The notes: generated from the sequence alone by a model not told the origin. DNA of 32,797 bases from an uncultured Lachnospiraceae bacterium (GCA_946630035.1 CAMOYN010000002.1:1-32797); one strand, 5' to 3'. Counted from the stretch's first letter, positions 18,572 through 30,728 are shown. Numbers and translations are program-made.

Positions 18572-18599
18572 AAAAAAGGAACGGGCAGATACCCGTTCC
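18572..18599 (-). terminator. Rho-independent terminator after the BMP-family gene
   Basis: Minus strand GGAACGGG-tatctg-CCCGTTCC-TTTTTT. Confidence 0.92.
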
Positions 18600-18665: not shown

Positions 18666-19856
18666 CTATTCCACGGAAATAATATCCGGGAGAAGATAGT
18701 AGAACGACGGATAGGAGGAGCGTTCATTCTCTAAAAAACCACCGTTCAGATCTATCGTAACGGAGGAATCCGTCGCACTGACCGCCGTCACGTCGGTTTT
18801 AAAGGCCTGACGTTTATTCCCCGTTTTAAACTGTCCGATCGCCTCGTCGATCTTCTCTTTCGTTCCGGGAGCCGCCAGCGCCGCATTCAGGTCCATCACC
18901 TCGACCCACCCATATTCAAATCCGGCGGATACATCGTTCCCATGAACATTCCCTTTTACCACACTTTCAATGGTCTCCCGGTTCAGCACCGCTTCCACCG
19001 CGGAGACAATATAAGGCGTCCAGTTGATTCTTGCCGCAATCAGCGCAGATCGCGGGGCTACTCCCAGCAGGCTCTGATTATAGGCGACATGGTACACATT
19101 ATGCGTCAGAGATGCCTCCTCGCAGGCCAGCACCGGACCGATGGTATCGGTGTGCTGCGATATAATCACACAGCCTTCCTGAATTAGTTCCTCCGTCATC
19201 CGCTTTTCCAGGGAAAAGCTGCCCCAGGTCCCGGTATAGCGCACGCGCATAAAGGCTTCCGGAGCCACGGAACGAGCCCCCAGGAGAAAGGCTGTATATC
19301 CGGAAATTACTTCCGGATCCGGGAAGGCAGCCACATAGCCGATGCACGCCTCCTCCGGAGTCAGGAGGCGACGATCGATCAGCTGCCGCAGAACACTGCC
19401 CGCAGCAATACCACTGACATACCGGGCCTGATAGGCTTCTCCCTTAAATGTGTGATAGTTTTCCGGGACACTCTCCTCACTCATATCCTTCCATGAGGCC
19501 TGGCAGAACTGCACCTCCGGATATTCCTTTGCCACCTCCAGGACCTGAGGGCTGTATCCATTCAGAAAAATGATACTGCAGCCTTTATTCACCAGATCTC
19601 TCAGAGGTTCTTCGGTTTCGTCATCCAGGACATTGCTGTGGCTTAGGATTTCAATGCGATCGTCATAAGTCTTTTTCAGCTCATCCGCTGCCAGTGAGAA
19701 ATTATAGGTGTACGAGGTACTTTCATCACTGTCATATACAAAACCCACATATATCTTTTCCTGCTCTACATTGGGATTAATCCACGTCTTGTAGACGTAA
19801 ACCAGGATCACTGCCAGCAGGCAGGTAGAAATCGTGGCAGCATATACACGCTTCAT
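18666..19856 (-). CDS. BMP/PnrA-like (Med family) substrate-binding protein, membrane-anchored, no lipobox
   Basis: IYVGFVYDSDESTSYTYNFSLAADELKKTY..., GEAYQARYVSGIAAGSVL, IGYVAAFPDPEVISGYTAFLLGARSVAPEAFMRVRYTGTWGS, NVYHVAYNQSLLGVAPRSALIAARINWTPYIVSAVEAVL; N-terminal TM (TISTCLLAVILVYVYKTW) without a lipobox Cys. Confidence 0.85.
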   Translation of the reverse strand: MKRVYAATISTCLLAVILVYVYKTWINPNVEQEKIYVGFVYDSDESTSYTYNFSLAADELKKTYDDRIEILSHSNVLDDETEEPLRDLVNKGCSIIFLNGYSPQVLEVAKEYPEVQFCQASWKDMSEESVPENYHTFKGEAYQARYVSGIAAGSVLRQLIDRRLLTPEEACIGYVAAFPDPEVISGYTAFLLGARSVAPEAFMRVRYTGTWGSFSLEKRMTEELIQEGCVIISQHTDTIGPVLACEEASLTHNVYHVAYNQSLLGVAPRSALIAARINWTPYIVSAVEAVLNRETIESVVKGNVHGNDVSAGFEYGWVEVMDLNAALAAPGTKEKIDEAIGQFKTGNKRQAFKTDVTAVSATDSSVTIDLNGGFLENERSSYPSFYYLLPDIISVE

Positions 19857-22800
19857 TTCTTCTCCTCCCCTCCGTCCGGTCCGGAAGCGGCTTCTGGCTC
19901 CGGTGAGTCTTTTTTCATGGCAGCTTCCTGGATTTTACGATCCTCCTCTACACGTCTGGCCACTTCTTCCTTTGTCTTCTGGTCCGCCTCACTGATCTCA
20001 GCTGCCTTCTCGCTGTAAAGTGCCTCCAGATCAATGATTCCCTTATCCACCAGGCGCAGGAAGGCATCCAGTGCGTTCGGATCAAACTGAGTCCCACGGC
20101 CACGTTTCATCTCATTCATAACATAATCCGTATCCATCTGATTCCGGTATACTCGATTGGATGTCATGGCGTCGAAGGCATCCGCCACACCGATGATACG
20201 GCCGATCAGCGGAATATCCTCCCCTTTCAGTCCCAGGGGATATCCCCGCCCGTCATAGCGTTCATGATGGAAGTTGGCTCCTTCCGCCACGTTTTCCACC
20301 AGTGTAAAATCCTTCAGGATATCTGCGCCCCGGGTAACATGAGACTTCATCTCCGCATACTCATCGTTGGTCAGACGGCCCACTTTGTTAAGGACATTAT
20401 CCCGGATACCGATTTTACCGATATCATGCATCTGGGCAGCCCTGCGCAGATTTTCCAGTCTTTTATCCCGCTGCCAGCCTTTGTAGCAGCCCATTTCCTT
20501 CGCAATCATGACCGAGTATTCGGCCACCCGCTTTGAGTGCTGACTGGTGCGTACATCCTTCGCGTCGACGGCATTGGCGATGGCCACCACAGTCTCATTG
20601 GCCATTTCCAGTTTCACTTTCTGTTTGTTGATCTGTCTCTGAACAAGCAGCCAGGTGATCCAGACGAAAAATGCTACAAGCACTGTCATCAGATAAACGG
20701 CAAAGCTTCTCTGTTCATACAGTTCACTCTTTTTAATCAGAGGCAGCTGTAATTCTTCCAGTATATTATCACCGGTACTGTCAAACACCGCCAGACGCAG
20801 CGTATACTGGCCGGAGGGAAGATTCGTATAGATCAGATGGCCCAGTTTGCTGTGGGGCATTAAGGTCCAGTTCTGGTCATATCCCTCCAGGATATATCCC
20901 ACATTCGGGTCCTGAATCGTATAATTCAGGATCTCCGGTTCAATCTCCAGCCGGTTCACCCCCTGATCCACCACGATGGACCCAGTCTGTTTCAGAGACT
21001 GCAGAGTATTATCAAAGTACAGTGAAGCGATGTGAATCCGGTAGGAATAGGTAAGCTGATTGTAACGGCGGGTATCAATAATATACATACCAGTATCACA
21101 GGGCAGGAACAGATCCCCCTGATCATCCAGGTAATTCCAGGAATTCGCCGTCAGAGCGGTGCTCAGCCCGCTCCGGGTATCCAGGAGCCGGAAGGGCATG
21201 TTTTCGCGATCTGCCACCAGATCATCCCGTTCCACGATATATACACCCGCACTCGACATGATCATCAGTATATCTCCATCCAGAGAACGGATATCGTAGT
21301 TGTTGTAGTAAGGGAAGTTCTTAATCGGCCGTGTTGTGTTATCTTCTTCCAGATAGCAGAGGCCGTTACTGGTAACCAGCATGACTCCGTCGGATTTCGG
21401 ATCCTTAATGGTACGGAGAATCACGCCGCTGGTCAGACCATTCGCCTGGGTGATCGTCTCCCGGATGGTTCCATCTTCAATGATCGCGATTCCGCCTCCG
21501 TCCGTACCGGCCAGGACCGTTCCGTCGCTTCTCTCGGTAATCGACAGAATCATCGTACTGGTGAGGCCGTCATGACTGCCGATCGTATGAACAACTTCGT
21601 GGTTACGGATAAATACGACCCCCGTGTCTGTTCCGGCTGCCAGTGTACCATCCGAAAGTTCCGTCGCCAGGCGGGCACGGTTTCCGATGCCGTGACTTTG
21701 CTCATCGTACTGCCAGATCTGCCCGTCGGGTGAAACTTCCAGGAGACCGGTACCATAGGTACAGATCCACAGGTCATCCTGACTGTCCACACAGAGACAA
21801 CGAATCCGCACATTCTTCAGCCGGGCTGTCAGCTCATTCTCTATCTGATTCCGGCAGGAAGAATCTACAATATCCAGACCATTATCCGTTCCGATATAAT
21901 AACAGTTCTGCCACCGGGTAATCGCATTCACCACACATCGTTCCATGCCAACCGTTCCATATACATCCTTAAAGGCGGAGTTTGCCATCCGCAGCAGTCC
22001 CAGACGGGTCGAAGTAAACCAGAGATTTCCCTGATAATCCTGCAGCATCTTATATATGGAAGCATTAAATTCATTGGTGTTGACCAGATGACACACTTTA
22101 TCCTTTCCCATATAGGCAACACAGTTATCGGAAGTGATAAAAAGAACGCCATCCTCCAGATAGTAGAGACGGTTTAAACGGGTAACCCCATCCAGGGTAA
22201 TCGTTTCTTTCAGTTCGAAACCGTTGTCCGCAATATCGTACCGATAGATATGATTGGTGGAGGTTCCCGCCATCAGGCTTCCATCCGGCGCGAAGGTACA
22301 GCAGTTAAACACTTCATCCACACCGGAAAGACGCAGGGAAGAAAGGATCCGCCCTTCCCGTAAGAGAAAGAGCCGTCCGTCCGATGTCAGAGCCGCGACA
22401 TGCCCCTGATCGTCTGCCGCGATGCACTCCGCATAGTTAATCTCACGAATGGTATTGAAAACTCTCAGGCCGTTATTCATGGCCAGGATCTGCATGCTGC
22501 TGGTCGTCCCGATATAGTAGTATCCGTCCGAGGACTGAATGATGGAACGGACAGAGTTCGAGGGCAGACCGGAATTCTGATCAATCACATTTACGATCTT
22601 CTCATTGATAGCAATGGAAAGGCCGTTATCATTGGTTCCGATCCAGAGCCGTCCTTCCTCATCCACATACAGGCAGTTTACATTTCGCACGGAATCATAA
22701 TTGCTGATCCACCGAAACTCCAGTCCATTGTAGCGATACAGTCCGGCATAGGTTCCGATCCACAGAACTCCGTCATTGGTCTGTACGATATCATTCGCCT

Positions 22801-23512
22801 GACCGCAGGGCAGTCCGTTATTTCCGGAATACACGGTCTTTACATAATCGTTGTAATCCGTGAAATCAATATCTGCGGCCTGCACAGACATCGTTCCGAC
22901 CCCCAGTCCCAGCAGAAGGATCAGGAAACATCCGGCCTTCGTCCGCCGGACAGCCACCAGCTCGTCTTCCTCGGTCAGCCTCCGGAAGATCTTCACTATA
23001 ATGAAAAGTATCAGCACCAGAAGCACCTTATCTGAAAACTCCACCAGGAGCTGTCCCACGATGGCACACAGCATAAAGGACCAGCCCAGACTCTGGAAGT
23101 ACTTGATGATGGCGTCTCCCCAGATATTATTGGTATAGCCCTCGTTGACAATCCAGTTCAGAGGAAGAGAAATCGCCAGGGCTATAAGCATCACTACCAG
23201 GGCGGTTCTCATGGCCTCATACAGATTATCCATCCATTGGTATATGCCGGCAAATCCCATTATCACGCCTATACCGATACTTGTCAGAGAATATGCCAGT
23301 GCCATTGCATTCATGTGCCCGTAGAGCAGATTACTTGTCAGCCCCAGCAGCGCCCCGCAGCTCGGGCCAGCCATATAACCATATAACATCGTCCCCAGGG
23401 AATCCATCCAGAACGGCCACTGAAAATGAGCTGCCAGAACCCTTCCGCCCACATTAAGTCCGAGACACAACAAGGCAAACAAAACGATCTGGTACGTCTT
23501 CCACTTTCTCAT
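19853..23512 (-). CDS. Multi-TM N-terminus + extracellular regulator beta-propellers + Y_Y_Y-like domain + TM + HD-GYP c-di-GMP phosphodiesterase
   Basis: Repeated blades such as GLPCGQANDIVQTNDGVLWIGTYAGLYRYNG; Y_Y_Y-like YILEGYDQNWTLMPHSKLGHLIYTNLPSGQYTLRLAVFD; TM AVYLMTVLVAFFVWITWLLV; HD-GYP HSKRVAEYS...MHDIGKIGIRDNVLNKVG...HHERYDGRGYPLGLKGEDIPLIGRIIGVADAFDAM. ATG 23512 has SD ggggagg. Overlaps the next gene by 4 nt. Confidence 0.92.
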   Translation of the reverse strand: MRKWKTYQIVLFALLCLGLNVGGRVLAAHFQWPFWMDSLGTMLYGYMAGPSCGALLGLTSNLLYGHMNAMALAYSLTSIGIGVIMGFAGIYQWMDNLYEAMRTALVVMLIALAISLPLNWIVNEGYTNNIWGDAIIKYFQSLGWSFMLCAIVGQLLVEFSDKVLLVLILFIIVKIFRRLTEEDELVAVRRTKAGCFLILLLGLGVGTMSVQAADIDFTDYNDYVKTVYSGNNGLPCGQANDIVQTNDGVLWIGTYAGLYRYNGLEFRWISNYDSVRNVNCLYVDEEGRLWIGTNDNGLSIAINEKIVNVIDQNSGLPSNSVRSIIQSSDGYYYIGTTSSMQILAMNNGLRVFNTIREINYAECIAADDQGHVAALTSDGRLFLLREGRILSSLRLSGVDEVFNCCTFAPDGSLMAGTSTNHIYRYDIADNGFELKETITLDGVTRLNRLYYLEDGVLFITSDNCVAYMGKDKVCHLVNTNEFNASIYKMLQDYQGNLWFTSTRLGLLRMANSAFKDVYGTVGMERCVVNAITRWQNCYYIGTDNGLDIVDSSCRNQIENELTARLKNVRIRCLCVDSQDDLWICTYGTGLLEVSPDGQIWQYDEQSHGIGNRARLATELSDGTLAAGTDTGVVFIRNHEVVHTIGSHDGLTSTMILSITERSDGTVLAGTDGGGIAIIEDGTIRETITQANGLTSGVILRTIKDPKSDGVMLVTSNGLCYLEEDNTTRPIKNFPYYNNYDIRSLDGDILMIMSSAGVYIVERDDLVADRENMPFRLLDTRSGLSTALTANSWNYLDDQGDLFLPCDTGMYIIDTRRYNQLTYSYRIHIASLYFDNTLQSLKQTGSIVVDQGVNRLEIEPEILNYTIQDPNVGYILEGYDQNWTLMPHSKLGHLIYTNLPSGQYTLRLAVFDSTGDNILEELQLPLIKKSELYEQRSFAVYLMTVLVAFFVWITWLLVQRQINKQKVKLEMANETVVAIANAVDAKDVRTSQHSKRVAEYSVMIAKEMGCYKGWQRDKRLENLRRAAQMHDIGKIGIRDNVLNKVGRLTNDEYAEMKSHVTRGADILKDFTLVENVAEGANFHHERYDGRGYPLGLKGEDIPLIGRIIGVADAFDAMTSNRVYRNQMDTDYVMNEMKRGRGTQFDPNALDAFLRLVDKGIIDLEALYSEKAAEISEADQKTKEEVARRVEEDRKIQEAAMKKDSPEPEAASGPDGGEEKK

Positions 23513-23527
23513 CCACAGCACCTCCCC

Positions 23528-24463
23528 TCAATTCAGAGAATACTGTTCAAACCAGCGGTTGTACTGATCTGCAGCCAGAACCTCATCTATAACCCCGTTC
23601 ACAAAATACATCAGCTGGATCTCACCTTTTGCAGCTGCAATCCGGTCTCCTTTATACTCCTCCATCAGAGTAAATTCAGGGATCGGTACAAACATAAGGC
23701 CACAGTCCGGGTGCAGAGTAATATGAGACGTGGCAATCGCAACATCGACAACGCCGGCATCCACTTTTCCCGTCTGCACCGCATCGATCACATCCGCAAC
23801 CGAATCCATCCGCCGGAACTGGCGGTAGAAAGGGGCGGCATCCACGGCCATGGACTCCTGCAGGGAACGGCTCTGGGCTGCGATATCCATCATCTCCAGA
23901 TCCTCGATACCGCGAATCTCCGGCTCTCTCTCCGCCCGGATCAACAGACCGCAGGTCGTCTCCTCTCCACTGTAGTAGTATCCCTTCGACATCTCCAGCC
24001 TGGCCGCCCGCGCTTCTGTAAAAGCCAGCGCCGAGATCGCCAGGTCATATTTTCCTTCTGCCACCGAATCCAGCACAGCGGAGAACTCCATCGGAACAAT
24101 CTCCAGTTCCACGCCCATCCGCTCCGCGATCCGCCGGGCCAGCTCCATGTCCGCTCCCACGTACTGATCCTGACCGGAGAGCGACTCGTCGATAAACTCC
24201 TGGGGAGGATAGTAAGGTTCCGTAGCCACCGTCAGTTTTCCTTTTTCCCGGATCATCCCCAGACGTCCCAGGGCATCCTCCGGAATTCCCTGAGAAACAT
24301 CCATGGATCCGTCCACATAGTTCCATTCATTCTCCACATAGACCGGTTCATCCAAAACCGGTGACTCGGCCAAGACCGTCTGAAAAGTAAGGCAAAGGCC
24401 AAGCACGGCAATAAGAAAAATCCCCATTCTCCCATCCCTTCGTTTTTTGCAATGGACCTCCAT
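23528..24463 (-). CDS. Extracellular solute-binding protein family 3 (PBPb/amino-acid-binding type), no lipobox
   Basis: REKGKLTVATEPYYPPQEFIDESLSGQDQYVGADMELARRIAERMGVELEIVPMEFSAVLDSVAEGKYDLAISALAFTEARAARLEMSKGYYYSG...; signal peptide MGIFLIAVLGLCLTFQTVLA. Confidence 0.88.
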   Translation of the reverse strand: MEVHCKKRRDGRMGIFLIAVLGLCLTFQTVLAESPVLDEPVYVENEWNYVDGSMDVSQGIPEDALGRLGMIREKGKLTVATEPYYPPQEFIDESLSGQDQYVGADMELARRIAERMGVELEIVPMEFSAVLDSVAEGKYDLAISALAFTEARAARLEMSKGYYYSGEETTCGLLIRAEREPEIRGIEDLEMMDIAAQSRSLQESMAVDAAPFYRQFRRMDSVADVIDAVQTGKVDAGVVDVAIATSHITLHPDCGLMFVPIPEFTLMEEYKGDRIAAAKGEIQLMYFVNGVIDEVLAADQYNRWFEQYSLN

Positions 24464-24514
24464 AAAACACCTCATATACGTGCAAGCCAATTGTAGAAAT
24501 ATTTTTTTGCGACT

Positions 24515-24543
24515 TTTATAGCCTTTTAGGTATATTTTTACAA
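24515..24543 (-). promoter_or_regulatory. Predicted sigma-A promoter of the binding-protein/HD-GYP operon
   Basis: Minus strand TTGTAA (24538-24543), 17-nt spacer, TATAAA (24515-24520). Confidence 0.6.
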
Positions 24544-24615
24544 ATAAATGATACCATATTGAGTATTGTATTTCAAGTAGAACCTATGGATCCCTATATT
24601 ATTGAGCAATTCCGG

Positions 24616-24645
24616 TTGACCAGAGGATTCCTCATACCTTATAAT
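24616..24645 (+). promoter_or_regulatory. Predicted sigma-A promoter of the divergent EAL gene
   Basis: TTGACC (24616-24621), 18-nt spacer, TATAAT (24640-24645). Confidence 0.65.
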
Positions 24646-24713
24646 AAATGAACTACAAACATATACATCTGACTCTGATCTACGCACCCAATGCGAACCG
24701 GAGGATACATATT

Positions 24714-27617
24714 ATGACAAAGCAGGAGTTCTGGGCACTGTTTTATGACCCGCAGGAAGAAGAGATTTCCCTCGCTGAAGAGATGAACCGCACTTCCTTT
24801 GATGAACTACTGGAAATCGATCTGGAAACCGGAAGATACCGCATCATCTATCATGTGCCGGAAAAATATCTGGGTACCTCACTGGAGGGTGATTTCCGCC
24901 GGTTTTATTTGTTTGCTCTGGAGCACTTTGTTCATCCGGAAGACCACGATGCCTATTCCGCCATGGTTGACCCGGACTTTCTCGCAGAACGTCTGAAAAA
25001 AGCATCCAACCGAGGGATTCTGAAAGGGCTCTTCCGCCTGAAAGGAAGCGACGAGAGCTGGATCTGGACCATGCACCTTCTGATATCCGGTACCGAGCTC
25101 GGCCTGCCGGAACACATCATCCGCTGTTATGTCTATGATATTCAGCGCCAGAAAGAACGCGTCCACGGTGAGATACCGGAATCCGAAGAAAGCTCCCATA
25201 CCAAGCATGAAGATGTCACCGGACTGCTGCTCGGCCAGGATTATTTCCGTCTGGTAGACAGCAAGCTCCCCCTCCTTACGGACGGCTGGTGCATCATCGA
25301 TATCGATATCGAACACTTCAAGCTGTTCGTGGACTGGTATGGGATGGAATCCGGGCGATATCTGCTAAGTCAGATCGGCGGGATTCTGAGGGAAGAAAGC
25401 AAAGCCAACGGAGGATTGCCAGGGTACCTGGGTTCGGAACATTTTTGCCTCGTCACTCCCTGCAACATGGAGCAGATCCGTTCCCTCCATGAGAAGATCC
25501 ACTCCCTGATCTCCACGCTCAGCATGATCGAAGGCTTCTCTCCCATCTTCGGCATTGCCCGGATCGATGGTTCCGCCAGCCATATTCTTGAATATTATAA
25601 TCATGCCGGCCTGAAGACCGAAGAGATCAAGGGAAACCTCCATAAACGGATCGATCTCTACGACGCCGGTCTCCATCGCAAGAATGCGGAAGAATATCAG
25701 CTTCTTTACGCTTTTCAGAATGCCCTTGACAATGGGGAGATCGGTTTTTATCTGCAGCCCCAGTACCGGGTTTCCAACCGCAAGATCGTCGGTGCCGAAT
25801 CTCTGGCCCGGTGGTGGAAAAAAGACGGAAGCATGATCAGCCCGGCCGTCTTTGTCCCCATTCTTGAGAAGCACGGTATCATCACCCGGCTGGATATTTT
25901 TATCTGGGAGGCGGTCTGCCAGTGGATCCGCCAGTGGATGGATCAGGGGCATCCCATCATACCGGTTTCGGTCAACGTATCCCAGATCGATATCCTATCT
26001 CTCGATGTCCCTGAACATTTCGCTTCCCTACTGAAAAAATACGAACTTCCCGTGGAGAGCATCAAAGTCGAAATCACCGAATCCGCCTATGTAGACAACG
26101 GGCTCTTTGTACAGGAGGCCGTAAGCAAGCTGCGCAAAATGGGCTTTATGGTCCTGATGGATGATTTCGGCAGCGGCTATTCTTCTCTGAACATGCTTCG
26201 CAGTCTGGACGTGGACCTGATCAAACTGGACGCTCAGTTTCTTAAGATTTCAGAAAATGAAGAACACAAAGGCATCAGCATTCTTGAGTCCATCATCAAC
26301 ATGACGCAGAATCTGGCCACTCCGATCATTGTGGAAGGTGTGGAGACCGAGGTGCAGGCCCGTTTTCTCTCCGATCTCGGCTGCCGGTATATGCAAGGCT
26401 TCTTATTTAACAGGCCCATGCCGGTAGAAGAATTCGAGCAGATTGCCCGGGATCCGTCTCACATCGACACCCACGGGTTTGTTTTCAAGGCCAATCAGCA
26501 GTTCCACACCCGGGAGTTTCTGGATGAAAACATCTACAGCGATGCCATGCTGAACAACATTCTGGGGCCGGTCGCTTTTTATAATGTTACCGGCGAGAGC
26601 CAAAAAAACATAGATATCATCCGTTTCAATGAGCAGTTCTATCAGCTCGTCGGTCTGGAAGTAGAAGATTTTGAAAAACGACGTTTTCACATTCAGGACT
26701 ACATCTATCCGGAAGATCTGCCAAAACTTTATGAACTGTTCCAGTATGCCACTCTCTACCGAAATGTCGGCGCCAAAGGAATCATCCGGGTCTACCGGCC
26801 CAGCGGCATGCTGGTCTGGTGGTCCCTGCAGATCTATTTTATTAATGAAGATATTCAGGGCCAGAAGTTCTACGGCAGCGCCCAGGATGTAACCGAACTG
26901 CAATTCATCCATTCCGATCTTCCCGGTGCCTACTATCGCTGTACCCTGGAAGACGAATTTGAATTCCTGTTCATAAGCAACAATTTCCAGCGAATCACCG
27001 GCTTTTCGGAGAATGAAATCAAGATTCTCTTCGACAACCGTCTTCTTCGCATGGTTCACCCCATGGACGCACCGCGGCTGATAGAGGAATCACAGGAACT
27101 CCTGCGCGGCAACCTGAACAGACTGCGTCCTTACCGGATTCAGCGCAAATGCGGAGATTATATCTATATGGCGGAGCAGACGCAGCTGACCGATCGTTAT
27201 GGCGAACTGTGCTGGCAGTGCATCGCCATTGATGTAACCGATGTGATGCATGTGAGAAATCAGATGCGTATTCTCTCCGCCCATTTAAAAGACACTATCC
27301 TCTTCCTTCATCGAACCACCGAAGGATTGATCTACGAAGTAGCCATACACGGACTGACCGAGGCTCTGGGACTGGACACCCAGGCCCTCCAGATCGCCCT
27401 GAACTCCGGAATCTTCTGCACCTGGGTGGAAGGCTATCAAAACATTCCTCATCAGGAATATACCGAAAGATTCATCCGGCAGATCGCCGGCAGTCAGAAG
27501 GAACTGAACCTCACCCTCCCGGATGGGAGAAAAACCACCCTCGTAGTCCGGGCCGATCTGGTAGGCGGGGAAAGAGGCGACATCGAATACATCGTTGTCA
27601 TCCGCCTCCACGAATAA
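24714..27617 (+). CDS. PAS - degenerate GGDEF - EAL - PAS-like regulatory protein (predicted c-di-GMP phosphodiesterase)
   Basis: GGDEF-like region with signature replaced (GYLGSEHFCLV); EAL with GAESLARW, VNVS, KVEITES, LMDDFGSGYSSL, DLIKLD, VEGVET, MQGF; PAS-type segments before and after. ATG 24714 has SD ggagg. Confidence 0.92.
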   Translation: MTKQEFWALFYDPQEEEISLAEEMNRTSFDELLEIDLETGRYRIIYHVPEKYLGTSLEGDFRRFYLFALEHFVHPEDHDAYSAMVDPDFLAERLKKASNRGILKGLFRLKGSDESWIWTMHLLISGTELGLPEHIIRCYVYDIQRQKERVHGEIPESEESSHTKHEDVTGLLLGQDYFRLVDSKLPLLTDGWCIIDIDIEHFKLFVDWYGMESGRYLLSQIGGILREESKANGGLPGYLGSEHFCLVTPCNMEQIRSLHEKIHSLISTLSMIEGFSPIFGIARIDGSASHILEYYNHAGLKTEEIKGNLHKRIDLYDAGLHRKNAEEYQLLYAFQNALDNGEIGFYLQPQYRVSNRKIVGAESLARWWKKDGSMISPAVFVPILEKHGIITRLDIFIWEAVCQWIRQWMDQGHPIIPVSVNVSQIDILSLDVPEHFASLLKKYELPVESIKVEITESAYVDNGLFVQEAVSKLRKMGFMVLMDDFGSGYSSLNMLRSLDVDLIKLDAQFLKISENEEHKGISILESIINMTQNLATPIIVEGVETEVQARFLSDLGCRYMQGFLFNRPMPVEEFEQIARDPSHIDTHGFVFKANQQFHTREFLDENIYSDAMLNNILGPVAFYNVTGESQKNIDIIRFNEQFYQLVGLEVEDFEKRRFHIQDYIYPEDLPKLYELFQYATLYRNVGAKGIIRVYRPSGMLVWWSLQIYFINEDIQGQKFYGSAQDVTELQFIHSDLPGAYYRCTLEDEFEFLFISNNFQRITGFSENEIKILFDNRLLRMVHPMDAPRLIEESQELLRGNLNRLRPYRIQRKCGDYIYMAEQTQLTDRYGELCWQCIAIDVTDVMHVRNQMRILSAHLKDTILFLHRTTEGLIYEVAIHGLTEALGLDTQALQIALNSGIFCTWVEGYQNIPHQEYTERFIRQIAGSQKELNLTLPDGRKTTLVVRADLVGGERGDIEYIVVIRLHE

Positions 27618-27759: not shown

Positions 27760-29409
27760 CTACCGGATGGTGAGTTCCACCGTCTTTTTTCCGGACTTGT
27801 ACTGCGCAGAGGGAAGAGCATAGACCATAATCTTTACGGTGCCCTTCTTTTTGGCCGTGACGACGCCTTTCCCGGAGACAGATGCCATTTCCGGGTTGGA
27901 GGATTCGTAGATCAGCTGCCCGGTACCGGAGGTTCTTACGGCGTTCAGCGAAATCTTCGCTCCTTTTTTCATCTCCCGTCTGCTTCTGACACTGATCTTC
28001 TGCGCTGTCTTTCCGGCTTTTACACCAAACCCCTTTACCAGAGCATTGTAAAGACGGTAGGTATATTCTCCTGCGGAGATTTTGGACTGTACGGTGATTC
28101 CCTGCCAGCTGCCGCCGCTTTGAATAAACGACTGTCCGCTCTGTATGACGGCGGGTCTGGCACCTTTGTCCACGACGTCCTGCAGCTCGAAGGGAATAAA
28201 ATACCGGCCCGAAGGCGCCTTTGCCGATATAAGAATACTGAAGGAAGCGCCTTCGGGAATGCCGATCTGTTTCCCCAGATCCATGCGGCTGTATCCGGCC
28301 TGCTTTTTCGTGAAGGTCTTGTTATACAGTCGGACTCCGGAGACCGGGGTGCTGCCGTCATTTGCTGCGTAGATCTGAATGTTCACCCGACAGTTATCCT
28401 CCGGCGTAAAGGTCATGACCTGATCCAGCAGAATGTCCGACCTGGCTGTGAAACAGTTCGCTCCAGCCGTTTCGCTGCCGCTCATCAGGATATAGTCGCC
28501 GATTCCGGTACCATCGTACTGATAGATTTCTTTTCCGCTGCTTTTCTGCCCGACGAAGCTCACCGCCTGGGAGATGCAGGGGCTGTAGTACGAGACGTAC
28601 ATATAGCCGTCTCCGTGAAGATCCGTTCCGTAGGAGTCCTTCACAATCCAGGCTCCGGGGCCTGCCGGCTTGTCTTCGGACCGGAAATCCCGGAAGGTAT
28701 CGTCCCAGCCCACAATCGTCACGGCATGGTCCGCAAGTTCTTCTTCCGAGTAATAGGTTTTCGTCTGGTTCGGAATCCTTGTCCCGAAGACCTTTTCCCA
28801 ACTGTAGAAATCGGGGAAACAGATCTTCGAGGCGACGGCTCCGTTTTTCATGATCAGCTGCTTGATCCGACGGTACGCAGCCCGGTCGTATTTTTCCACA
28901 GTATTGTTTACCTGGACAAAGACCGCCTGCTTTAGTTCATACTGAGACTTCGTCATCATTTTTTGCGTGATGTACTTTCCCCCGGGCATACTGTCACCGC
29001 TGAAGAGAGAATAGGGCATGGTTTTTTCCGTGACAGCCCCGTAACCTCTGGCCAGTTCCGCAGCGGCCGTATAGAAATTCGTCGCATCCCCGCTGTGGAA
29101 ATAGGCATCCTTCCCGGCGTATTTGCTGACAGCTTCGCTGCTCTTCGGATTCAGCATAAAACAAGCCATGTGCGCCTCCGACAGGTCAATCTCCGGCCCG
29201 GCGATCCCCTGGGTGATCAGATTGGATTCCATAGAGGCCAGAGTGGCAAAAGCCCAGCAGAAAGTACGTTCCGATCCCTGGTCCTTGACCCCGGTGACAC
29301 GGCCCTGTTTTCTCAGATCATATTTTGACGGCAGAGATGCTGCCCGGCTGGGCAGTGCGGCAGACAGGAGCAGCGCCGCCGAAAGAATCAGTACCGAAAA
29401 TTTCTTCAT
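27760..29409 (-). CDS. Secreted C1 (papain-like) peptidase with lectin-like domain and C-terminal Big-like domain
   Basis: Signal peptide MKKFSVLILSAALLLSAALPSRAAS; YDLRKQGRVTGVKDQGSERTFCWAFATLASMESNL; DHAVTIVGWDDTF; AWIVKDSYGTDLHGDGYMYVSYY; C-terminal YESSNPEMASVSGKGVVTAKKKGTVKIMVYA. Confidence 0.85.
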   Translation of the reverse strand: MKKFSVLILSAALLLSAALPSRAASLPSKYDLRKQGRVTGVKDQGSERTFCWAFATLASMESNLITQGIAGPEIDLSEAHMACFMLNPKSSEAVSKYAGKDAYFHSGDATNFYTAAAELARGYGAVTEKTMPYSLFSGDSMPGGKYITQKMMTKSQYELKQAVFVQVNNTVEKYDRAAYRRIKQLIMKNGAVASKICFPDFYSWEKVFGTRIPNQTKTYYSEEELADHAVTIVGWDDTFRDFRSEDKPAGPGAWIVKDSYGTDLHGDGYMYVSYYSPCISQAVSFVGQKSSGKEIYQYDGTGIGDYILMSGSETAGANCFTARSDILLDQVMTFTPEDNCRVNIQIYAANDGSTPVSGVRLYNKTFTKKQAGYSRMDLGKQIGIPEGASFSILISAKAPSGRYFIPFELQDVVDKGARPAVIQSGQSFIQSGGSWQGITVQSKISAGEYTYRLYNALVKGFGVKAGKTAQKISVRSRREMKKGAKISLNAVRTSGTGQLIYESSNPEMASVSGKGVVTAKKKGTVKIMVYALPSAQYKSGKKTVELTIR

Positions 29410-29421
29410 AGTTGTCTCCTC

Positions 29422-30663
29422 CTATCGGATTACCATTGTTTTCACGGCGGACCATTTGCCATACACGGTTCTCCCGGCTACCCTGGTAAAGGGACGAATC
29501 TTCCAGGCAGTTGTCTGTCCTTTTTTCACGCCGGCCAGTTTTTTACTGGTCCATTGGACGGTACCGCTGTTTTTAATCGAAGCCGCTTTCTTATAGCTGC
29601 CCGTTTTCCCCATTCGCCAGAAAATCTGATATCCGCCGGCATGTTTCACTTTCTTCCATTGCAGGCGGACCTTTCTCCCTCTGAGCGCCTCGGTTTTCTT
29701 CCATTCCGTCCCGAACTGCCTGGCGCTGATCTCACTGACAAGTGTCAGGTCATTGTCTGAGGCGTATTCTGCCGCTGCGGAGAAAGCACCGGCATATATT
29801 ACAAAGCCGGGAACCTTTGTGTATATGATCTCCTGTGTTTTCGGATGGATTCTGTGGTTGATTCCGAAAGCCTCCGTGCCGATCGCCTCTACCGCAGCCG
29901 GAATTGAAATCTGTTGCAGACCCGTATTGGCAAAGGCTCCGTCCCCGATCTCCGTGATCGTATCCGGCAGCTTTACCGCCGTGATCTTTTTGTTCCCGCT
30001 GAATGCACCGTTGCAGATTTCCGTGACCGGATAAATTTTATTATCTATGCGGACATTCTTTCTGATCCCGATGGTTCCCGACAGTTTGCCATCCCCCAGA
30101 ATCACACTCGCCGTCTCCTGGCCATCGTACACATAATACAGGATGCCATTTACGGTTTTTTCGATGTGATCATCCAACGCCCGGATTGACAGGATCTCCG
30201 TAGTGGCACAGAAATAAATGTCATCGATCCCGGCTGCCGGTCTGCCCTCCGAATCCAGAGGGTTCCCCTCTTCATCTATTCTGTACAGACCAAAAAGATA
30301 GGTGCACGTCTGGCCAATGCCCCCATCGGGATCCAAGAGCCCGGTGTTATCCACCCATCGATACATTATACCGAACCCATATTTCCCGATACTCTTCCAG
30401 TTCTTATCATAGAAATCGTTGAAGCGGTACGTAAATTTCAGAGTTTTCCCATGGTCGGTGACAGTGATTCTTTCCCCCTGGTTGAACTCCGTCGGGATGT
30501 ACATGACATAATAATACACTACTTCCTCGACCGCGGGCCTGTCCTCAAAGCGAATCCCATAATCCGCCGAAGCCGCCGAAGCCTGTTCCGGCCTGACAAA
30601 GCCCGCGAGGATAATGCTCAATACAAACAGCAGAAATAGTGTTTTCCATTTTTTCTCTCTCAT
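29422..30663 (-). CDS. Secreted BspA-like leucine-rich-repeat protein with C-terminal Fn3-like domain
   Basis: Signal peptide after MREKKWKTLFLLFVLSIILAGFVRPEQASA; LRR_5-type ICNGAFSGNKKITAVKLPDTITEIGDGAFANTGLQQISIPAAVEAIGTEAFG; Fn3-like RKVRLQWKKVKHAGGYQIFWRMGKTGSYKKAASIKNSGT. Start at 30663 (SD gaggagg). Confidence 0.83.
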   Translation of the reverse strand: MREKKWKTLFLLFVLSIILAGFVRPEQASAASADYGIRFEDRPAVEEVVYYYVMYIPTEFNQGERITVTDHGKTLKFTYRFNDFYDKNWKSIGKYGFGIMYRWVDNTGLLDPDGGIGQTCTYLFGLYRIDEEGNPLDSEGRPAAGIDDIYFCATTEILSIRALDDHIEKTVNGILYYVYDGQETASVILGDGKLSGTIGIRKNVRIDNKIYPVTEICNGAFSGNKKITAVKLPDTITEIGDGAFANTGLQQISIPAAVEAIGTEAFGINHRIHPKTQEIIYTKVPGFVIYAGAFSAAAEYASDNDLTLVSEISARQFGTEWKKTEALRGRKVRLQWKKVKHAGGYQIFWRMGKTGSYKKAASIKNSGTVQWTSKKLAGVKKGQTTAWKIRPFTRVAGRTVYGKWSAVKTMVIR

Positions 30664-30728
30664 ATCAAACCTCCTCGTACGTGATCCATGGCCCGGCAAC
30701 CGATGTTCCCGGGTAACCAGATATTATT

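Follow-up and report, generated by a model that had tools for sequence, protein, structure and literature searches.

A predicted extracellular-input c-di-GMP phosphodiesterase encoded with a membrane-anchored BMP-family protein, its candidate co-receptor, in Lachnospiraceae

Introduction

In the NspS-MbaA systems of Vibrio cholerae and Sinorhizobium meliloti a sensing binding protein docks on a membrane-bound c-di-GMP enzyme, whose activity is set by the ligand (PMC8967002, PMC9993111). In the AgtS and AruS systems of Pseudomonas binding proteins are encoded near sensor kinases that they activate (PMC11113362) and, according to a 2022 review, within the periplasmic-binding-protein clan only SBP_bac_3 domains have been studied in c-di-GMP networks (PMC8846402). 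For most c-di-GMP enzymes no input is known, and the gene pair considered here offers a sensor whose ligand class is predicted to be purine.

Banse et al., cited in PMC11210211, are said to have found in 2011 that Med, a membrane protein of Bacillus subtilis without an importer, is needed for the sensor kinase KinD; we take Med to be BMP-like, and it is not known to be encoded together with KinD. Our search of the literature for a regulator propeller combined with an HD-GYP domain, or for an ECF S component combined with one, found none.

The locus and its regulatory sites

The locus lies in a window of 32,797 nucleotides (the whole stretch of DNA analysed) from a gut or rumen Lachnospiraceae bacterium. 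Its genes and sites are as follows.

18578-18599, minus strand: intrinsic terminator ending the operon before mraZ, a 9-bp stem and then TTTTTTG
18666-19856, minus strand: BMP/PnrA-like binding protein, membrane-anchored partner of the HD-GYP protein (PF02608)
19853-23512, minus strand: HD-GYP sensor with an S-component-like membrane domain, Reg_prop propeller, Y_Y_Y domain, one transmembrane (TM) helix and HD-GYP domain (Pfam, NCBIfam, PDB relatives, fold model)
23528-24463, minus strand: SBP_bac_3 protein of the polar amino-acid type, with a signal peptide and no lipobox (PF00497, 82 bits)
24548-24576, minus strand: promoter-like site of the SBP-HD-GYP-BMP operon, TTGAAA-17-TATCAT, an extended -10 with TG
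24616-24645, plus strand: promoter-like site of the divergent EAL gene, TTGACC-18-TATAAT
24714-27617, plus strand: PAS / degenerate GGDEF / EAL / PAS-PAS protein without TM helices (EAL, 207 bits)

The initial annotation had described these four genes, and BMP, HD-GYP, SBP_bac_3 and EAL were each found with the expected domains where it had placed them. Its account of the spacing was equally exact: the SBP stop codon lies 15 nt 5' of the ATG of the HD-GYP gene, which has the Shine-Dalgarno sequence GGGGAGG, and the HD-GYP and BMP genes share 4 nt, ATGA. It had also given the operon a promoter and a terminator of its own, and matching sites are present, the assignments being plausible, though not proven, from their position. 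The two promoter-like sites point outwards with about 40 bp between them. Promoter-like sites across the region are in modest excess (12 against a shuffle mean of 7.2), and terminator-like sites across it show no excess over shuffled sequence. Among the identified neighbours of the four genes there is no ABC gene, as had been claimed: mraZ and rsmH lie to one side, and to the other a gene for a papain-like protease and one for an LRR protein. The papain-like C1 protease (27760-30699 of the window, minus strand) has lectin-like and Big_2 domains, and the adjoining gene, also on the minus strand, encodes an LRR_5 protein.

Architecture of the HD-GYP protein

Four parts of the sensor can be delimited, given here from its N-terminus.

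22868-23512, minus strand: N-terminal ECF S-component-like membrane domain, residues 1-215 (NF045596 match, AlphaFold2, PDB fold matches)
20762-22849, minus strand: extracellular Reg_prop propeller and Y_Y_Y domain, limits approximate (PF07494, PF07495; PDB 4a2l, 3v9f)
20642-20707, minus strand: TM helix joining Y_Y_Y to HD-GYP, residues 936-957 (from the sequence)
20075-20578, minus strand: HD-GYP domain with HDIGK and HHERYDGRGYP (PF13487)

The HD_5 profile scores 118 bits (cut-off 27.2), the HDxGK and HHExxDGxGYP motifs are both present and these catalytic motifs are kept in relatives; the protein is predicted to be a membrane c-di-GMP phosphodiesterase. This reading is supported by the presence of diguanylate cyclase domains in the window's genome, since that fragmented assembly, 67% complete, encodes 12 GGDEF domains above cut-off, the degenerate one in the window included. 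A Pfam search of the protein found no HAMP, PAS or other domain between Y_Y_Y and HD-GYP, and both halves of the protein have relatives in the PDB.

The multi-TM part noted by the initial annotation is indeed there and can be refined to an ECF S-component-like domain. NCBIfam NF045596 (the CD3073 S component) matches it with 54.8 bits and an E-value of 9e-15, under the curated cut-off of 180. An AlphaFold2 model of residues 1-215, made as a single chain like all the structure predictions here, has a pLDDT of 89.8 from an alignment of 41 homologues, and in a Foldseek search of the PDB its best 17 matches are all ECF S components (RibU, ThiT, FolT, PanT, BioY), with TM-scores by target of at most 0.67 and weak E-values of 0.01 to 1. 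An S-component-like fold for the domain is, on this modelling, well supported. Deeper relatives that keep the S-like domain and the propeller have the output domain swapped, for HD-GYP plus a receiver or for a hybrid kinase with Hpt.

A conserved pair, not a trio

The loci of relatives were gathered with the HD-GYP protein alone, so that adjacency of a BMP gene is not built into the count, and their genes were called as mechanical ORFs. Of the 74 related loci whose downstream sequence is long enough, 73 have a BMP gene directly 3' of the HD-GYP gene; the sole exception has a split HD-GYP ORF, and there too a BMP gene stands behind. Among 98 junctions, 79 measure exactly -4 nt, and the outer neighbours differ locus by locus. 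Across 298 genomes of the family the partner type of BMP never occurs without an HD-GYP protein of this kind in the same genome, and the HD-GYP protein occurs without any partner BMP in two of them (G009 and G247), which shows that the BMP is not strictly needed.

The gene for the SBP is present in the window and in 7 of the 64 loci with upstream sequence. For that reason the SBP-HD-GYP-BMP trio was rejected as the conserved unit: the unit is the HD-GYP and BMP pair, and the SBP is a lineage-limited third component of the module. Of the permease-free trio whose conservation the initial annotation had wanted tested, the pair is conserved without BMP-type permeases and the SBP is mostly missing. 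Named carriers are mostly rumen Butyrivibrio and their relatives. A search of 288 class-wide genomes for the pair outside the order yielded, beyond the family itself, nothing but propeller-HD-GYP relatives that lack the N-terminal domain, and in two loci from a neighbouring family (L216, L217) contig ends hide the position of the BMP gene; the pair appears to be confined to Lachnospiraceae, perhaps with a neighbouring family.

The BMP partner

The window's BMP matches PF02608 with 71 bits (cut-off 24.1) and begins with a hydrophobic segment.

19773-19856, minus strand: N-terminal membrane anchor of the BMP, residues 1-28, without a lipobox (hydrophobic segment)

Neither binding protein has a lipobox, in agreement with the initial annotation, the SBP having a plain signal peptide and the BMP this anchor, and among the partner BMPs listed the hydrophobic N-terminal segment without a lipobox is kept. 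A maximum-likelihood tree unites the partner BMPs in one clade (support 100/100) whose sister group consists of importer BMPs; the nearest of these that were sampled are lipoproteins, and almost all have ATPase and permease genes adjoining. Within about four genes of the partner BMP no BMP-type permease was found in any of 71 loci, and an ABC-like gene of any sort in 7 of them, mostly ATPase matches of other kinds. Set against what marks an importer subunit, the window's BMP is not a lipoprotein and has no BMP-type ATPase or permease genes beside it.

The purine site of AtzT (PMC6834077) served as the reference for pocket positions, which were mapped by alignment with PDB 6pi5 and 3s99. Partner BMPs have the Tyr in 91 of 91, the Glu in 91 of 91, the Trp in 90 of 91 and the Asp in 90 of 91, Tyr and Trp being the stacking residues. 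With the pocket near-invariant and the features of transport gone, ligand binding seems, from the sequences, to be kept under selection, and we infer purine as the ligand class. In the partner BMPs, which come from anaerobes, four cysteines (C93, C118, C229 and C245) are conserved to 97% or more, possibly as disulfides or a metal site.

The SBP_bac_3 protein

The PDB relatives of the window's SBP are amino-acid SBPs. All eight HD-GYP-linked copies retain the Arg and the Asp typical of such proteins, and the ligand would be an alpha-amino acid. Relatives of the transporter type are lipoproteins, several of them adjoining permease and ATPase genes; relative to these homologues the HD-GYP-linked SBPs have lost the lipobox; they share a signal peptide. 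At four further loci (L163, L164, L166, L169) lipoprotein SBPs 37 to 38% identical to that of the window are encoded without a recognised permease or ATPase gene as immediate neighbour.

An aligned segment common to the HD-GYP-linked SBPs, YVxNEWNYVDGSMDVSxGIPEDAxGRL, corresponds in the window to the following.

24260-24340, minus strand: N-terminal motif YVENEWNYVDGSMDVSQGIPEDALGRL, SBP residues 42-68 (from the alignment; specific to HD-GYP-linked SBPs)

The whole motif has no other occurrence in 298 genomes. In the model of the protein confidence is low to about residue 46 and high from about residue 51, so that the motif is weak at its start and ordered over its remainder. A clade of 72 rows in the HD-GYP tree has L085 and the window as its two deepest branches, while the remaining SBP loci, six in number, make up one nested group, a distribution reflecting either a single gain with losses or transfer.

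Anchored BMPs at other sensors

Ten other Lachnospiraceae genomes (L212, L225-L232, L234) have genes for two tandem TM-anchored BMPs immediately adjoining one for a hybrid histidine kinase; in an eleventh (L233) a single anchored BMP precedes a hybrid sensor kinase. One of the kinases was identified with Pfam, the others by similarity. In the tree the kinase-linked BMPs are separate from the HD-GYP-linked ones, a second recruitment which supports the general notion of anchored BMPs working for sensors in Lachnospiraceae. Elsewhere a BMP lipoprotein gene lies directly 5' of a chemoreceptor gene (sCache, HAMP, MCP signal; L213:704-3622), and one genome has three tandem BMP lipoproteins, which the tree places close to those linked to kinases (L224:5127-9159).

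The divergent EAL gene

The EAL gene and its domain are present as the initial annotation had it, with the start moved to what is most likely the true one, ATG 24714, which follows GGAGG and lies downstream of the promoter-like site. Its sequence points to a cytosolic protein with the EAL catalytic residues. No EAL ortholog adjoins the HD-GYP-BMP pair in relatives, SBP-bearing loci included, and the gene was rejected as a conserved partner. Genes for c-di-GMP proteins of any kind are nevertheless more frequent within 3 kb of the pair than far from it (22 vs 10, p 3e-4; p 0.003 once close relatives are dropped), at densities of 6.0 near and 1.6 far per 100 kb and 1.7 in control loci. Around the pair, then, c-di-GMP genes are common, but this particular EAL partner is not conserved.

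Proposed mechanism and rival explanations

The sequences themselves show gene order, conservation and domain content, pockets and catalytic motifs that have been retained, and transporter features that have been lost; complex formation, the identity of the ligands, the direction of control and regulation of the HD-GYP protein by the binding proteins are inferred. We consider it fairly probable that the locus is an extracellular-input c-di-GMP phosphodiesterase with captured binding proteins as its co-receptors. The BMP would have been captured from a purine/nucleoside ABC importer and would be made by translational coupling with the HD-GYP protein and tethered to the membrane, where it would most likely dock on the propeller as a ligand-presenting co-receptor. 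In the window and a few related lineages the amino-acid SBP, without a lipid anchor and with its candidate docking motif, may add a second input. Closure of the binding proteins on their ligands would shift the propeller/Y_Y_Y dimer and with it HD-GYP activity, which the presence of nutrients would probably raise, though we attach little confidence to that direction. Such an arrangement suggests that outside nutrients could switch c-di-GMP without being imported. The co-receptor role put forward in the initial annotation is supported for the BMP by its adjacency, overlap, lack of a permease, anchor, pocket and separate clade, and more weakly for the SBP with its few loci. Bolder, and rather doubtful as a whole, is the notion that one phosphodiesterase combines binding parts of three kinds of importer (BMP-type ABC, polar amino-acid ABC and, built in, an ECF S-like domain) to integrate three nutrient inputs without transport, and that together with the BMP-BMP-kinase cassette it marks out a broader class of Lachnospiraceae co-receptors made from membrane-anchored BMPs.

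Might both binding proteins instead be ordinary importer subunits, for permeases encoded elsewhere, with adjacency to the HD-GYP gene reflecting co-regulation only? Both families normally serve importers, their ligand pockets are retained and, there being two BMP-type ABC importers elsewhere in the genome, anchored proteins could deliver ligand to distant permeases. Such importers, however, come with lipoprotein BMPs of their own, every copy examined here has a TM anchor or a plain signal peptide in place of a lipobox, the partner BMPs are a clade apart and their overlap with the HD-GYP gene is near-obligate, all of which makes this quite improbable.

The pair could also be real with a BMP that carries no signal and helps the propeller only structurally or in folding, the HD-GYP protein sensing by its propeller or S-like domain alone. 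The two genomes with an HD-GYP protein and no BMP speak for this, as does the lack of a BMP in deeper relatives with the S-like domain and propeller, but a structural role has no need of a ligand pocket near-invariant in 91 partners, and we hold it to be unlikely. That the trio and the divergent EAL protein make up one c-di-GMP-lowering module, as the initial annotation proposed, is more improbable still: the divergent promoter-like sites and the enrichment described above favour it, yet the lack of an orthologous EAL gene beside the pair leaves of the proposal a general excess of unrelated c-di-GMP genes within 3 kb.

Comparison with known systems

The preferred reading, in which binding proteins act as co-receptors, would make the locus an illustration of how importer parts may become receptors in a monoderm family, and since the pair has a predicted ligand class and spans many Lachnospiraceae genera of rumen and gut, it opens the control of an HD-GYP enzyme by ligand to direct testing. 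The N-terminal domain shares its fold with ECF S components (RibU, ThiT, FolT; CD3073 of NF045596) and differs from them in being fused to a signalling enzyme and in scoring far under the CD3073 cut-off. With the Reg_prop hybrid two-component sensors (PDB 4a2l, 3v9f) the protein shares an outer propeller and Y_Y_Y domain from which one TM helix leads into the signalling domain; unlike them it has an HD-GYP output, the added S-like membrane domain and binding proteins encoded alongside. Med likewise is taken here to be a BMP-family membrane protein without an importer that serves a sensor, but KinD is a kinase with dCache whereas the output in the window is HD-GYP. As in the AgtS and AruS systems an SBP gene lies near a sensor gene, the sensors there being histidine kinases and the setting the proteobacterial periplasm. 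In NspS-MbaA a permease-free binding protein gene also stands beside the gene for a membrane c-di-GMP enzyme, a likeness at the level of gene order. In place of a polyamine-type SBP and a GGDEF-EAL enzyme in diderms there are BMP and SBP_bac_3 proteins, one of them anchored in the membrane, a Reg_prop propeller and an HD-GYP domain in a monoderm family: by analogy, the locus would resemble an NspS-MbaA built from other protein families.
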